Below are positions 213-62,013 of a DNA stretch of 64,000 bases, piece by piece. The translations under genes were made by a program, and so were the position numbers. The notes beneath the pieces were generated by a model. It worked only from the letters and a program-made list of their open reading frames with translations, was not told the DNA's origin and made no database searches. This DNA comes from a bacterium HR11. GTDB lineage: Bacteria; Acidobacteriota; HRBIN11. Position 1 is the stretch's first letter, and each line of letters opens with the position of its first letter. The DNA lies in the NCBI GenBank assembly GCA_002898535.1, contig BEHN01000015.1, positions 1-64,000 on the forward strand, read 5' to 3'.

Positions 213-470
213 ATGCGGCTGACTTACGACCCGCGTTATAATATTGCATACATCCGTTTTAAAGAAGAGCCCGTCGAGGGTGTCGATACAATTCAAATCA
301 GTGATGAGTTGATTATCGATATGGCGCCGGACGGGACCGTCTATGGGATTGAGCTTCTGAATGCCAATGAACAGCTTCGGCGAGAAGGAACGGGGCGCCT
401 GATGGTCGTTAACGAAGCCACGGGCGAGCAAGTCGAACTGGCCTTGCCCGTCGGGTCGAACGGAGAATAA
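213..470 (+). CDS. DUF2283 domain small protein
   Basis: An 85-residue protein starting MRLTYDPRYNIAYIRF, the usual opening of DUF2283 proteins, followed by the I-S-D-E-L and D-x-D/G-x-x-x-G-I-E-L-L pattern of the family. I chose ATG 213 over ATG 198 because it begins at the conserved first residue and has a GGGGG Shine-Dalgarno-like run just upstream. DUF2283 proteins are often found beside DUF4258 or DUF4160 partners and are suspected antitoxin-like proteins, but their biochemical role is unknown. The stop codon is immediately followed by the first base of a foldback repeat element at 471. Confidence 0.8.
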   Translation: MRLTYDPRYNIAYIRFKEEPVEGVDTIQISDELIIDMAPDGTVYGIELLNANEQLRREGTGRLMVVNEATGEQVELALPVGSNGE

Positions 471-795
471 CAGAGCCGTTCGGTTCGTGAGAATGGCGTC
501 AGAACAATCTTTCCCATCCCCCGGAAAGCACGATGTTTCAAGCATTCGGCAGGTGGGCAGGTCGGCAGATGGGCAGGTGGGCAGATGGGCAGGTCGGCCG
601 GTCGGGCGACGGGCGTCTATCCCCGGCACACCGGCCGTCATGGCGGTGGCTTCCGGAGAGAGCCCGCCGTCCTGCGGGCGTCCTCCGCATGTACCGCCCG
701 TCATGGCCGGGTCATCCGGAGGAAGCTTGAAAAATCGAGATGGCCGGGCCACCTTCCCGGATGGGAACCGCATTTCTCCCAACCGAACCGCTCTG
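471..795. repeat. Foldback element copy A, CAGAGC-type inverted ends
   Basis: The left end reads CAGAGCCGTTCGGTT and the right end is its inverted counterpart ending in CTCTG. The arms continue inward for about 75 bases: the left arm has TTTCCCATC then TTTCAAGC, and the right arm shows GCTTGAAAAATC and GGATGGGAA in mirror order. The centre begins with tandem octads (GGCAGGTG, GGCAGATG, GGCAGGTC) and ends in a Gly/Arg-rich-looking segment shared with copy C in reverse orientation. There is no transposase or plausible ORF with codon bias. It begins directly after the DUF2283 stop. Target-site duplications are not clear. Confidence 0.85.
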
Positions 796-848
796 ATAAC
801 AGAGACGAAGGGAAGGCGAGACCATCGTGGACCTGGGAGAAGTCGTCT

Positions 849-1331
849 GTGAGGTCCGGTAGGAAGGGGGTTTTCGTATGGGTCGTCTTCGTATGCGCCG
901 TGGGCGTCCGGTCGGCCGGGGCCCAGTGTTCCGTCACGGCGACCAACATCAGCTTTGGGTCGTATGACGTCTTTAGCTCGACGCCCCGCACGGCCACGGG
1001 GACGATCACCGTCGACTGCGACATGGCGCCGCCCCCGGACGTCATCATTCAAATCGGGCCGAGCGCCCACTCGGGGAGCTTCAACCCCCGGCAGATGAAG
1101 CACGTCGCCCGTCCGGACCGCCTGAATTACAACCTGTTTACGGACCCGACGATGACGACCATCTGGGGGGACGGAACGTCGGGGACGGCGACGAGGACCT
1201 GTGAGCAGGTCGTCAAGCCGAAGCCTTGTACGCAGACGGTCTACGCCTTACTTCCGGCCGGCCAGGACGTGGCCGTCGGGCCGTACCAGGACGTCGTGAC
1301 GGTCACGATCATCGTGGTCCCGAAGAAGTAA
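849..1331 (+). CDS. Secreted spore coat U (SCPU) domain protein
   Basis: A 160-residue exported protein. A hydrophobic leader (VFVWVVFVCAVGVRSAGAQ) is followed by CSVTATNISFGSYDVFSS, the hallmark opening of the SCPU/spore coat U domain, then TATGTITVDC and a final VGPYQDVVTVTI strand, as in this family of secreted beta-sandwich proteins. In Gram-negatives such proteins are often chaperone-usher-type fimbrial or surface subunits, but no chaperone or usher gene is adjacent, so its role here is unclear. The start is GTG 849, with GGGAG at about 836-840; longer in-frame starts run into foldback element A and are rejected. Four cysteines in the mature part could form disulfides. Confidence 0.8.
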   Translation: MRSGRKGVFVWVVFVCAVGVRSAGAQCSVTATNISFGSYDVFSSTPRTATGTITVDCDMAPPPDVIIQIGPSAHSGSFNPRQMKHVARPDRLNYNLFTDPTMTTIWGDGTSGTATRTCEQVVKPKPCTQTVYALLPAGQDVAVGPYQDVVTVTIIVVPKK

Positions 1332-1364: not shown

Positions 1365-1623
1365 CAGAGCCGTTCGGTTCGTGAGAATGGCGTCAGGATA
1401 ACCTTTCCCATCCCCCGGGAAGCACGATTTTTCAAGCATCCGGCAGATGGGCAGGTCGGCAGATAGGCAGATAGAAGCCGGGTGGGCAAGGATCAGCCCC
1501 AGGGCTTTTGGGACCATCTGCCCATCTGCCGAACTGCCTATCTGCCAAAGCTTGAAAAACCGTCCTTCCCGAAGGGTCGAAAAAGCCGAATCCATGCGGG
1601 TTTTCACGAACCGAACGACTCTG
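1365..1623. repeat. Foldback element copy B, CAGAGC-type inverted ends
   Basis: This is a 259-bp element with CAGAGCCGTTCGGTT at the left and the inverted equivalent ending CTCTG at the right. Inside the ends, two octad arrays face each other (GGCAGATG/GGCAGGTC on the left, CATCTGCC/GAACTGCC on the right) around a ~40-bp loop, so almost the whole element can fold as one imperfect hairpin. It is nearly the reverse complement of copy D at 31780-32037, including the loop, which suggests recent copying. Confidence 0.88.
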
Positions 1624-1828: not shown

Positions 1829-3225
<1,397 letters not shown>

Positions 3226-3235
<10 letters not shown>

Positions 3236-3450
3236 GTGTTGGGTGTTCGGAAATCTATCGAGTCACGCGGAGTCTTCCGGCCAGTGAACGTTTTCGCTGG
3301 GTCGATCGACTATGCCGAGCCGCTACTTCCATTCCGACGAACATGGCTGAGGGCAAGGGTCAGATGCTGAACCGCTTGATCACGGCCTTGCAGAAGGGTC
3401 GCGCCCGGATGTCTCGGCCGAACACCCAACGCCCGACACCCAACACCGAG
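3226..3450. repeat. Heptad inverted arms around a captured fragment
   Basis: The left arm at the trpE stop (GTGTTAGGTGTTGGGTGTTC) faces the right arm at 3418-3450, built from 7-bp words such as AACACCC, AACGCCC, GACACCC and AACACCG. The arms are inverted relative to each other and enclose about 170 bases holding the four-helix-bundle gene fragment. The left arm overlaps the last bases and stop codon of trpE; the right arm ends a few bases before the trpG ribosome binding site. Confidence 0.8.
3247..3363 (+). pseudogene. Truncated four-helix-bundle (S23) protein fragment
   Basis: In one frame this spacer encodes EIYRVTRSLPASERFRW then DRLCRAATSIPTNMAEGKG. That matches the centre of the four-helix-bundle family (23S rRNA intervening-sequence protein type), whose hallmark is Y-x-x-T-x-x-x-P-x-x-E-R-F, then R-R-A-x-x-S-I-P-x-N-I-A-E-G. 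The family is normally ~115-125 residues; here the N-terminal ~12 and the C-terminal ~70 residues are absent, the frame then running into unrelated repeat. It has no start codon or ribosome binding site of its own and sits between inverted heptad arms. I read it as a relic captured with the repeat. The function of intact members is not firmly established. Confidence 0.65.
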
Positions 3451-3467: not shown

Positions 3468-4052
3468 GTGATCGTGTTAATCGACAACTACGACTCATTC
3501 ACGTACAACCTCTACCACCTCCTGGTTCAGATGGACCCCGACGTGCGGGTCTTCCGGAATGACGCCATCTCGGTCGAGGCGGTCCTGGACCTGCGACCGA
3601 ACGCCGTCGTCATCTCGCCGGGCCCCGGTCGCCCCGCCGAGGCCGGCATTTGCATCGAGTTGATCCGGCGGGCCGGCGACCGCATCCCGATGCTGGGCGT
3701 GTGCCTGGGTCACCAGGCGATGGCCGAGGCGACCGGCGGGCGGGTCGTCCATGCACCGACGCTCCTGCACGGCAAGACCAGCCGGATCACGCACGAGGGA
3801 ACGCCGCTCTTCCAAGGCGTGGCCAACCCCTTCGAGGCGACGCGCTATCATTCCCTGGCCGTCGAGCCGGAGAGCCTGCCGTCTGACTGGGTCATCTCGG
3901 CCCGAGCCGACGACGGCGTCATCATGGCCATCGAGCACCGCCGCTGGCCGATGGCCGGCGTCCAATTCCACCCCGAGTCGGTCCTGACCTCGGAGGGACC
4001 CCGCATCGTCGAGAATTTCCTGCGCCACTACGCCGGCTGGCCGTGGCGGTGA
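3468..4052 (+). CDS. trpG: Anthranilate synthase glutamine amidotransferase subunit
   Basis: A 194-residue class I glutamine amidotransferase that hydrolyses glutamine and channels ammonia to TrpE. The opening IDNYDSFTYNLYHLL, the oxyanion motif ISPGPGRP, the nucleophile in GVCLGHQ (Cys79) and the C-terminal QFHPES carrying the catalytic His and Glu are all present. The start is GTG 3468 with AAGGAG eight bases upstream. It could also serve p-aminobenzoate synthesis, as amphibolic TrpG/PabA proteins do; no separate pab genes are in the window. It lies on the same strand as trpE but is separated by a repeat and gene relic. The next gene, homoserine dehydrogenase, lies beyond another ~200-bp repeat. 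Confidence 0.93.
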   Translation: MIVLIDNYDSFTYNLYHLLVQMDPDVRVFRNDAISVEAVLDLRPNAVVISPGPGRPAEAGICIELIRRAGDRIPMLGVCLGHQAMAEATGGRVVHAPTLLHGKTSRITHEGTPLFQGVANPFEATRYHSLAVEPESLPSDWVISARADDGVIMAIEHRRWPMAGVQFHPESVLTSEGPRIVENFLRHYAGWPWR

Positions 4053-27893: not shown

Positions 27894-28601
27894 ATGCCAG
27901 TCATCACGATCCCGAAGGCCCTCCGGGATCGGCTGGGCGACGAAGGCTCAGACGCCTTAGCTGACCTCATGAATGCGGTGATCGACCAGGCGCGGACCGA
28001 CATGTTCTCTCTGGTCGTGGAACGGTTTGAACGACGGCTCACCGAGGAGTTCGGCAAGATGAACGAGCGCATCACGTCCCTGGAGCAGACTTTTGAACGG
28101 CGCCTGGCCGAGGAAATCGGCAAGGTCAATGCCCGCATCACCGAGGAAATCGGCAAGGTCAACGCCCGCATCACTGAGGAAGTTGGCAAGGTCCACGAGC
28201 GCATCACGTCCCTGGAGCAGACTTTTGAACGGCGCCTGGCCGAGGAGATCGCCAAGGTCAACGCCCGCATCACCGAGGAAATCAGCAAGGTCAATGCCCG
28301 CATCACCGAGGAAATCGGCAAGGTGAACGAACAGATCACTGAGGAAATTGGCAGGGTCCACGAACGGATCACGTCCCTGGAGCAGACCTTCGAACGCCGT
28401 CTGGCCGAGGAAATCGGCAAGATGAACGAGCGCATCACGTCCCTGGAACAGCGATTTGAGCGGCGGTTGGCGGAAGAGACGGCTAAGCTCCGCCAGGAGA
28501 TCGCCGAGCTCAAGGCCGACCTCATCCGTTGGATGTTCATCTTCTGGGCGGGCCAGTTAGTCGCCATATGGGGGATTCTCCTCGCCTTTTTCCGACGATA
28601 A
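27894..28601 (+). CDS. Coiled-coil protein with tandem repeats and C-terminal TM
   Basis: A 235-residue protein consisting mostly of a long heptad-patterned coiled coil built from two alternating repeat units, EEIGKVNARIT (11 residues) and ERITSLEQTFERRLA (longer), recurring about eight times between residues ~45 and 195. It ends in a hydrophobic segment (LIRWMFIFWAGQLVAIWGIL) and a basic tail FFRR, suggesting a C-terminally anchored membrane coiled coil similar to the DUF1640-type proteins. At DNA level units such as GAGGAAATCGGCAAGGTCAA are nearly identical, so repeat number may vary. ATG 27894 has AGGAGG six bases upstream (ATG 27891 is also possible). The partner is unknown. Confidence 0.75.
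   Translation: MPVITIPKALRDRLGDEGSDALADLMNAVIDQARTDMFSLVVERFERRLTEEFGKMNERITSLEQTFERRLAEEIGKVNARITEEIGKVNARITEEVGKVHERITSLEQTFERRLAEEIAKVNARITEEISKVNARITEEIGKVNEQITEEIGRVHERITSLEQTFERRLAEEIGKMNERITSLEQRFERRLAEETAKLRQEIAELKADLIRWMFIFWAGQLVAIWGILLAFFRR
28035..28465 (+). repeat. In-frame tandem DNA repeats in coiled-coil gene
   Basis: 33-bp units (GAGGAAATCGGCAAGGTCAA and on) and a larger unit containing CGCATCACGTCCCTGGAGCA recur in tandem within the coding region, all multiples of three, and differ by only a few bases. This looks like recent duplication and gives a locus prone to copy-number change without loss of frame. Confidence 0.8.
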
Positions 28602-45485: not shown

Positions 45486-45496
45486 GGACGCTCCCC

Positions 45497-45706
45497 TTTC
45501 GGCCGTTCGGGAGTTCGGCAATTCGGGAATTCGGCAGGTGGGCAGATGGGCAGATAGGCAGATGGGCAGGTAGGTGAAGGTGGCTATCCGTTAGGGTGAC
45601 CCGTTTCCTGTCGCCGGCCTCCAGGCCGCATCCCCGCCCCGGCCGGCCCCCATGCCCGAGTCCCCGAACTCCCGAATTCCCGGATTCCCGAATTCCCGAA
45701 CGACCG
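45497..45706. repeat. Octad arrays in the secY-adk spacer
   Basis: TTCGGGAGTTCGGCAATTCG then GGCAGGTGGGCAGATGGGCA (two 8-bp families) form one side, and CCGAACTCCCGAATTCCCGG with further CCGAATTC words (45662-45700) the inverted other side, around ~80 bp of unique DNA. Confidence 0.85.
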
Positions 45707-50861: not shown

Positions 50862-51012
50862 CTCATCCATCCGACGGGACCGGGATCGGACCCTCGATAT
50901 TAGACCACAGACCAAAGACCACAGACCGCAGACCATGGACCATAGACCATAGAGCCCCTGGGGCCAAGCCGGTCTATGGTCTGCGGTCTATGGTCTATAG
51001 TCGAATCTATGA
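50862..51012. repeat. Foldback element, CTCATC-type ends, in rplX-rplE gap
   Basis: Left end CTCATCCATCCGACGGGACC and right end ATAGTCGAATCTATGAG are inverted. Seven words of the CCACAGA/CCATAGA type face GGTCTATGGTCTGCGGTCTA across GCCCCTGGGGCCAAGCC. It is the second copy of the element overlapping pyrB (30207-30340), and here it splits rplX from rplE by 259 bases. Confidence 0.88.
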
Positions 51013-60837: not shown

Positions 60838-61190
60838 GGTCGGGGGTTCGGGAATTCGGCCATCCGGGAATTCGGCAATTCAGCAGTTCGGCCGGTGGGG
60901 CCGGTCGACCCTTTTATCCAAGCCCCGCTCGTTAGAGCGGGGTCCGGAGCTATCCGGCCGTTCGGGAGTCCGGGGATTCGGGAATTCGGGAGTTCGGGAG
61001 CCCGGGCATGGGGGCCGGCCGGGGCGGGGATGCGGCCTGGAGGCCGGCGCCGGCGGTCGGCGACAGGAGGGGCGAAGAGTCGGGAAAGCTTCAGGAAGAC
61101 GTGGGGACTTGGAACGATGAATGTCCCTTGCCTTCTACGTCGGCCGCCGAACGGCCTTCCCGAATTCCCGAACTCCCGAAGTGCCGATCT
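60838..61190. repeat. Three TTCGGGAA octad arrays before rpsL
   Basis: Arrays at 60842-60895 (TTCGGGAATTCGGCCATCCG and on), 60958-61005 (TTCGGGAGTCCGGGGATTCG and on) and an inverted one at 61145-61190 (CCGAATTCCCGAACTCCCGA) lie between pheA and the promoters. The first two face the third, giving nested inverted arms. The unique sequence between them contains no ORF I would support. Confidence 0.8.
60923..60942. repeat. Perfect 8-bp hairpin, CCCCGCTC/GAGCGGGG
   Basis: CCCCGCTC, loop GTTA, GAGCGGGG. It lies between octad arrays downstream of pheA (minus strand). No U-tract follows on either strand. Confidence 0.55.
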
Positions 61191-61191
61191 G

Positions 61192-62013
61192 CTAAGAGGC
61201 TTCTCGGGGGAACGAGCCCAGGACTTTCATCCACTGCGTGTGTTGGGCGAGCTCGGCCAGGGCCTCGGCGACCGGTGGGTCGTCCCGATGGCCCTCGAAG
61301 TCGACGTAAAATACGTACTCCCAGGGCCGGTTCCGGGCCGGCCGGGACTCCAGCTTCAAGAGGTTGATGTGCCGTCGGGCCAGGCACCCAAGGGCCCGGT
61401 ATAGAGAGCCCGGGACGTGAGCGACGGCCATCACGAGCATCGTCTTGGAGGGTCCCGACGGCCGAGGCGCCGGGTCCCGCCCGAGGACGATAAAGCGCGT
61501 GTAGTTCTCCGGCACGTCCTGGATCCCCTCGGCCAGGACGGTCAGACCGTACAGGTCGGCCGCTCGACGGCTGGCCACGGCGGCGACCCCCGCCAGGCCC
61601 TGTTCCCGAATCATGCGGGCGCTCCCGGCCGTGTCGTACTGGGCGATGACTTCCACGCCCAGACCCCGCAGGAAGCCCTCGCACTGCTCGAGGGCTTTCG
61701 GGTGAGAGTAGACCCGTCGGATGTCGGTCAGGGCTTGACCCGGCAGGGCCATCAGACACAGCTCGACGGCCACGACCCGCTCGCCCCGCACGAACAGGTC
61801 ATACTGCCGAAGCAGGTCGTAGACCTCGTTGATCCCCCCGGCGATGGAGTTCTCGACGGGGACCATCCCGTAATCGACCTGCCCGCGGGCGACGAGCTGG
61901 AAGACCTGGGCGAACGTATCGCAGGGAACCGGCTCGACGGCCTCGCCGAAGTACCCGACGACGGCCTCTTCCCCAAAAGCGCCCCGCTCGCCCTGAAAGG
62001 CCACCCGTACCAT
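61192..62013 (-). CDS. pheA: Prephenate dehydratase
   Basis: A 273-residue monofunctional enzyme that makes phenylpyruvate from prephenate for phenylalanine. The catalytic domain (residues ~1-180) has VAFQGERGAFGEEAVVGYFG, GMVPVENSIAGGINEVYDLL and the TRF motif in PENYTRFIVLGRD; the C-terminal ACT domain (HVPGSLYRALGCLARRHINL then LLKLESRPARNRPWEYVFYV) binds phenylalanine as in feedback-inhibited members. There is no chorismate mutase domain. The start is ATG 62013. No other phe or tyr gene is next to it. Confidence 0.94.
   Translation of the reverse strand: MVRVAFQGERGAFGEEAVVGYFGEAVEPVPCDTFAQVFQLVARGQVDYGMVPVENSIAGGINEVYDLLRQYDLFVRGERVVAVELCLMALPGQALTDIRRVYSHPKALEQCEGFLRGLGVEVIAQYDTAGSARMIREQGLAGVAAVASRRAADLYGLTVLAEGIQDVPENYTRFIVLGRDPAPRPSGPSKTMLVMAVAHVPGSLYRALGCLARRHINLLKLESRPARNRPWEYVFYVDFEGHRDDPPVAEALAELAQHTQWMKVLGSFPREAS

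Follow-up and report, generated by a model that had tools for sequence, protein, structure and literature searches.

Between trpE and trpG, positions 3227-3447 of the window (by which we mean the whole 64,000-nt stretch of DNA that was analysed) hold two facing arms of approximately 7-bp units, GGGTGTT/AACACCC, which flank a 40-aa remnant of an S23-family gene (PF05635). The features of the locus, with the element at the 3' end of trpE, are as follows:

1829..3235, + strand: trpE (anthranilate synthase I), its 3' end shortened by the element relative to the congener G001
3227..3250, + strand: 5' arm, a short inverted tandem array of GGGTGTT units that holds the trpE stop (arm alignment)
3247..3366, + strand: fragment of an S23 gene (PF05635) that spans profile positions 14-53 of 106 (profile match)
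3418..3447, + strand: 3' arm of AACACCC units, complementary to the 5' arm (arm alignment, RNA fold)
3468..4052, + strand: trpG (anthranilate synthase II)

The arms contain about three heptad units each. They are 88% complementary over 24 nt (3227-3250 and 3418-3441), and in a second register, 3235-3246 against 3436-3447, all 12 of 12 positions pair. The arm score was equalled in none of 5000 mononucleotide shuffles and at none of 9106 other window sites sharing that geometry. RNA fold prediction likewise pairs the arms (-99.2 kcal/mol, z -3.1) and puts the S23 reading frame in the loop of a predicted long stem. Both the trpE stop codon (TAG, 3233-3235) and the sole in-frame upstream start codon within the element (GTG at 3229) lie inside the 5' arm.

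A sequence-only reading had described the locus as a truncated four-helix-bundle gene of the S23 family, known from the protein encoded in the 23S rRNA IVS, enclosed by inverted heptad arms inside trpE-trpG, and this description holds. The enclosed frame matches PF05635 with E 6.8e-10 and 39.6 bits (cut-off 33.8) and TIGR02436 with 38.7 bits (cut-off 24), and with both curated cut-offs exceeded the fragment belongs to the S23/23S_rRNA_IVP family. Since the match ends at profile position 53 of 106, the C-terminal half of S23 is missing from the window copy. The absence of any intact homologue and of any profile match had been named as what would speak against this description, and we found both homologue and match. 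In G001, where we read the sequence directly, trpE-trpG is without an element and TrpE is about a dozen residues longer; a gain in the window genome (G000) and a loss in G001 both fit this difference.

Inverted arrays around S23 genes

A profile search of G000 (2.99 Mb) gave seven PF05635 matches. Reading their flanks directly, we found six between inverted short tandem arrays, while the seventh, L002, is truncated where its contig ends, with an array on the remaining side. The elements have one unit each (GGCAGATG, GGATTGC, GAATGAT, GGGTGTT, GATCCG-type and GCGAGTG). It had been proposed to search the genome for an intact parent gene with the same flanks: intact homologues are indeed present, but none of the other matches among the seven has GGGTGTT arms, so that for the window copy no direct parent was found. 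Comparison with G001 shows several kinds of change. The L004 element is absent from G001, and a different heptad hairpin lies there, so that this is no clean empty site; L001 and its G001 relative L019 have the element in common and differ in their flanks; and L007 has lost the first half of S23 by a deletion not present in G001 while retaining its arms, so that it has decayed in the manner of the window copy. The arms gain or lose whole units between the congeners.

The arrangement extends well beyond this genus. Among 36 S23 loci of relatives (L001-L036, out of 105 listed PF05635 matches), a strict detector, calling tandem arrays (≤400 bp) on both sides with an inverted score of ≥12, was positive at 22, as against none of 30 trpG loci; mispaired flanks gave 26 positives out of 1260. 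In a broad set, made up of the 80 best stretches among at least 584 related ones from a scan of genome contigs, it found two-sided inverted arrays at 32 loci vs 2 of 285 shifted positions in the same loci, and an array was present on at least one side in 67 of the 80. A more sensitive, array-agnostic test aligned the 300 bp upstream with the reverse complement of the 300 bp downstream, omitting loci with short or N-rich flanks (2 of 36 among the relatives, 2 of 80 in the broad set). By this test 72 of the 78 remaining broad loci and 31 of the 34 from relatives exceeded the 95th percentile of mispaired flanks, leaving six broad loci without significantly complementary flanks; at a fixed score of ≥12 the figures were 71 of 78 broad loci vs 14 of 281 shifted positions. 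L110 of the broad set and L020 of the relatives are apparently one locus. The best tandem period of the 156 broad-set flanks was 7 in 71, 14 in 17 and 8 in 15, and on viral contigs the strict detector was positive at 4 of 11 loci. Two loci stand out by their arrays: the flanks of 3001-3315 in L071 hold long arrays on both sides that are direct, not inverted, and at L082 both arms are very long (180 nt overlap, 91% complementarity).

Members of the S23 set come from Bacteroidota, Pseudomonadota, Cyanobacteriota, Planctomycetota, Acidobacteriota, Bacillota, candidate phyla and others, and one comes from an archaeal MAG. The S23 tree covers 77 of the 80 rows (L088, L124 and L141, with in-frame stops, were omitted), has few columns and is poorly resolved. 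It needs 11 changes for Bacteroidota, 9 for Pseudomonadota and 6 for the 6 rows of Planctomycetota, a pattern that would be compatible with transfer without amounting to proof of it.

The repeat unit varies between elements and is common to both arms of one element. Arm-unit similarity was 0.89 for S23 pairs at least 65% identical (16 pairs, among them the duplicate L020/L110 and plasmid copies that are close relatives), 0.61 for pairs 55-65% identical and 0.55 for those below 45%. As judged from these comparisons, the arms diverge together with their S23 gene, and the unit goes with the element lineage, being neither specific to the host nor a sequence of the whole family. An origin of the arms from the target is not supported, because related S23 genes at different places keep one unit. 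Unit order is only weakly mirrored between the arms, with 3 of 47 elements beating 90% of unit shuffles; this rules out exact mirror-copying as a general rule, and the arms are thus not simple mirrored copies. Taken together with the gain and loss of whole units between congeners, the weak mirroring means that the arms behave as slipping tandem arrays with a common unit. Read inward, the 5' arm is G-rich (GC skew above 0 in 50 and below 0 in 7 of 58 elements), which recalls the quadruplex-forming heptamers in the accessible text of PMC4692102.

Inverted pairs were also collected irrespective of S23 from a specificity sample of 60 stretches of 20 kb (1.2 Mb) in three genomes, on contigs mostly known to carry S23, which yielded 20, 14 and 7 pairs per genome. 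All eight pairs with interiors of 300-600 nt enclose S23 (six by our own profile, two by the PF05635 matches at G000:C1:212277 and G028:C27:488768), vs none of 27 with interiors below 150 nt, one of four at 150-300 nt and neither of the two above 600 nt. The eight interiors measure 377-521 nt and are filled by S23 or its remnant, and none of them has a recombinase between terminal inverted repeats. Two S23 genes in the G028 sample were missed by the detector, and their inverted heptads are visible by eye. The sequence-only reading had regarded the S23 gene as captured by the repeats; the eight gene-sized interiors, and the divergence of arms and S23 in step, reverse this, making S23 the regular gene of the element. 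Its suggestion that other heptad elements might carry fragments of other genes mostly failed, with one possible exception, an inverted GGATTGC pair in G013 (L230 13625-14572) whose 890-nt non-S23 interior may contain another gene.

The window itself contains five inverted hairpins or pairs without S23:

1442..1546: S23-less inverted octad hairpin of the GGCAGATG type, its unit as in the S23 element L001
31856..31960: S23-less inverted octad hairpin of the GGCAGATG type
45495..45700: S23-less inverted octad hairpin, common to G001 with differing repeat numbers
50902..51002: S23-less inverted heptad hairpin, AGACCAC/GGTCTAT, missing at the orthologous G001 place
60960..61187: S23-less inverted octad pair, part of a repeat family that recurs at several other G001 places

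These S23-less hairpins are also polymorphic between G000 and G001. Other repeats of the window include one of approximately 240 bp (60953-61193), found at around ten other places in G001 with 72-86% identity, and tandem 33/66/132-bp coding-like repeats at 28026-28438. A larger repeat family (window 470-860 and 1360-1640, L225 2831-3909) has palindromic ends, AACAGAGCCGTTCGGTTCGTGA... / ...CCGAACCGCTCTGATAA, and octad hairpins are nested mid-way in it.

Insertion polymorphism, siting and selection

Filled and empty versions of one junction were found on cyanobacterial plasmids. Site 1 is filled in T. variabilis (two records) and Scytonema NIES-4073, and six other records match in two pieces (90% cover, 97.0-97.3% identity). 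Among Nostocales strains, T. variabilis ATCC 29413 has the plasmid element on its plasmid C. In the empty sites that we read, L273 and L274, the gene junction measures 13 nt, compared with 441 nt when filled, a 428-bp difference placed directly after the upstream TAA; L276 has a decayed remnant. The site-1 element alone (420 bp, 78-83%) recurs in other contexts in Aulosira AP018309 and Nostoc plasmids. Site 2, in another plasmid operon, is filled in L272, L280 and L279 and empty in L278, L281, L284 and L282, with the insertion likewise at a stop codon; L283 carries a different insert there. L282 has a different S23 element one junction onward that is missing in L272, and an element with matching heptad arms and a non-S23 interior interrupts the S23 gene of L279. 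Yet another junction occurs in three states: filled with S23 (L301, L310), without S23 but with arms of that type (L308), and unfilled (L309). Candidate 5-bp target-site duplications are GTAAT at site 1 and TTCTA at site 2, the latter overlapping an arm unit, and none is evident at sites 4 and 5. The filled and empty plasmid sites and the related copies in other contexts bear out the mobility that had been thought plausible from the window alone.

Of the 32 broad-set elements with detected arms, 27 had measurable neighbours and 20 of these had a co-directional upstream frame. In 15 of the 20, the 5' arm begins -15 to +11 nt from the stop codon of that frame. For random positions the share within 10 nt of such a stop is 4.5%, in a control not restricted to intergenic DNA, so that targeting and selective survival are inseparable in the comparison. 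Copies of S23 at different loci (L271/L277/L272/L280; L001/L019) are under purifying selection, with dN/dS 0.10-0.15 at dS 0.86-1.3, and the S23 protein is therefore of importance to whatever maintains or spreads the element. With E 7.8e-38, S23 is homologous to 2GSC, the solved structure of the S23 protein XCC0516, and the available text of PMC4990558 describes the Xanthomonas S23 structure as a toroidal homopentamer. Residues invariant in the family alignment (W6, Y17, Q34, S41, N45, A47, E48, G49, S68 and E71) could form a binding site or an unrecognised active site.

Heptad-armed S23 elements also lie between cas6 and cas4 in type I-D CRISPR operons of two cyanobacterial plasmids (L302 1119-1896, L303 1273-1954). 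Such elements may account for the presence of S23 among genes listed as CRISPR-associated, such as '23S rRNA IVP' among the CRISPR-adaptation associations in the accessible part of PMC10910872. A Dolichospermum sequence, 98.8% identical, had to be discarded as a clean empty cas6-cas4 site, as it holds another insert. Membership in a defence system was also rejected, PADLOC giving nothing for three of four S23 proteins and one weak Cas11e match (E 0.006).

A probable mobile S23 element, rival explanations and known systems

Insertion polymorphism, relocation and absence from the congener together point to a mobile element that resembles the 23S rRNA IVS and resides at gene junctions, and we consider it likely that the window contains a decayed copy of such an element, with S23 as its own gene between inverted arrays. 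The intact element is approximately 0.4-0.6 kb long and consists of one four-helix-bundle gene between inverted arrays of 7-bp (sometimes 8-9-bp) units; it is small, very widespread in bacteria and has no recognisable enzyme for moving. We envisage that the arms form a long DNA or RNA stem bound by S23, and that S23 would direct copying and spread of the element with host enzymes, no nuclease, recombinase or RT being encoded inside. By analogy with the Coxiella 23S IVS, the stem in the transcript may be cut by RNase III, and such cutting would make insertions at operon junctions tolerable. Decay of S23 by deletion would then give rise to truncated elements like that of the window, and perhaps to the common solo hairpins. 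A wider proposal, which we put forward tentatively, is that S23 elements form a class of mobile element of their own across bacteria, in which the ~120-aa pentamer is the sole protein and itself directs copying or insertion, the arms are defined by architecture and not by sequence, and much bacterial heptameric-repeat DNA is their footprint.

It seems to us rather unlikely that S23 elements are instead non-autonomous and moved in trans by a Y1/REP transposase or an RT, with S23 as an accessory like Avd, the protein of diversity-generating retroelements whose fold family resembles PF05635 and is homologous to S23 according to the available text of PMC10053308. Y1_Tnp was matched in 18 of 22 S23-positive vs 7 of 18 S23-negative genomes and RT in 11 of 22 vs 3 of 18 (all drafts), as this explanation would predict, but genome size and the overall load of mobile elements confound this association. 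Moreover, the draft window genome gave no match to either Y1 transposase or RT (PF00078), the drafts of G001 and G002 gave no RT match, and with 11 of the 22 S23-positive drafts lacking RT, RT as a required partner is not supported.

Heptad hairpins could also be primary, arising by slippage or spread by something else, with S23 as an inserted or captured passenger. The S23-less hairpins outnumber S23 elements in the 1.2-Mb sample, those of the window's own genus with unrelated units come and go, and at L004 one genome has a hairpin where the other has an S23 element. We nevertheless regard this order of events as improbable: gene-sized interiors are S23 without exception in that sample, the arm unit co-diverges with S23, and related copies in different contexts keep S23 and arms together. 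Very improbable, finally, is a host-serving intergenic module for RNA processing or attenuation, scattered by ordinary transfer and loss, for although purifying selection and the placement at stop codons in operons, including that between cas6 and cas4, would suit it, plasmids that are ~97% identical differ in whether they carry the element, relatives of that element lie in unrelated neighbourhoods, and some copies are truncated or interrupted, all of which speaks against such a module.

The mobile S23 element differs from other short or repeat-bounded elements in what it carries. Diversity-generating retroelements combine Avd with an RT, and the window element, with no cognate RT match in the draft genomes, falls outside them. 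Like MITE/REP-type elements, S23 elements are short and have inverted repeats, and their S23-less versions could be mobilised in trans; unlike those, they have arms built of tandem repeats whose unit is arbitrary, and at full length they carry a non-transposase gene. A classical IS or transposon has a recombinase between its inverted repeats, whereas the sampled S23 elements have S23 or its remnant only.

Heptameric simple repeats of Xanthomonas, Nostoc and Calothrix are named STRR, and to our knowledge heptameric intergenic repeats have stood unexplained since their description in cyanobacteria and Xanthomonas; 'four helix bundle protein' is a common annotation with no function attached. These repeats (STRR/SSR) resemble the window arms in being tandem 7-bp units in intergenic DNA. 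In the accessible text of PMC4692102, heptamers of Xanthomonas and Nostoc often form convergent pairs (70 and 75 pairs in two Xanthomonas genomes) and show no general link with mobile elements, and S23 is not mentioned; in contrast to that account, heptads are here the arms of S23 elements across many phyla. TAACTGA repeats are described in Beggiatoaceae (PMC4679880, available text). No paper linking heptad arrays to S23 genes outside rRNA was found in the open literature, which covers little of subscription journals and bioRxiv. The link gives the four-helix-bundle annotation and the intergenic heptads one common cause, and raises the question of how a DNA segment spreads without a known recombinase.

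The 23S rRNA IVS, known from Leptospira as well as Coxiella, is like the S23 elements in having an S23-family ORF in a stem loop. In Coxiella it is ~430 nt long, with tandem heptamers GACAGAT of strain-variable number just upstream of the ORF and a stem reportedly cut by RNase III (PMC4990558, available text). Among the S23 loci searched for six short 23S words, only L029 contained one, and a 23S location of L029 was rejected, as it has no Rfam match. S23 elements differ from the rRNA IVS in lying at protein-gene junctions and not in rRNA, as the window element does between trpE and trpG, in their many copies per genome with a heptad unit of their own each, and in their long tandem arms on both sides, and the rRNA IVS would thereby become one niche of a general element.
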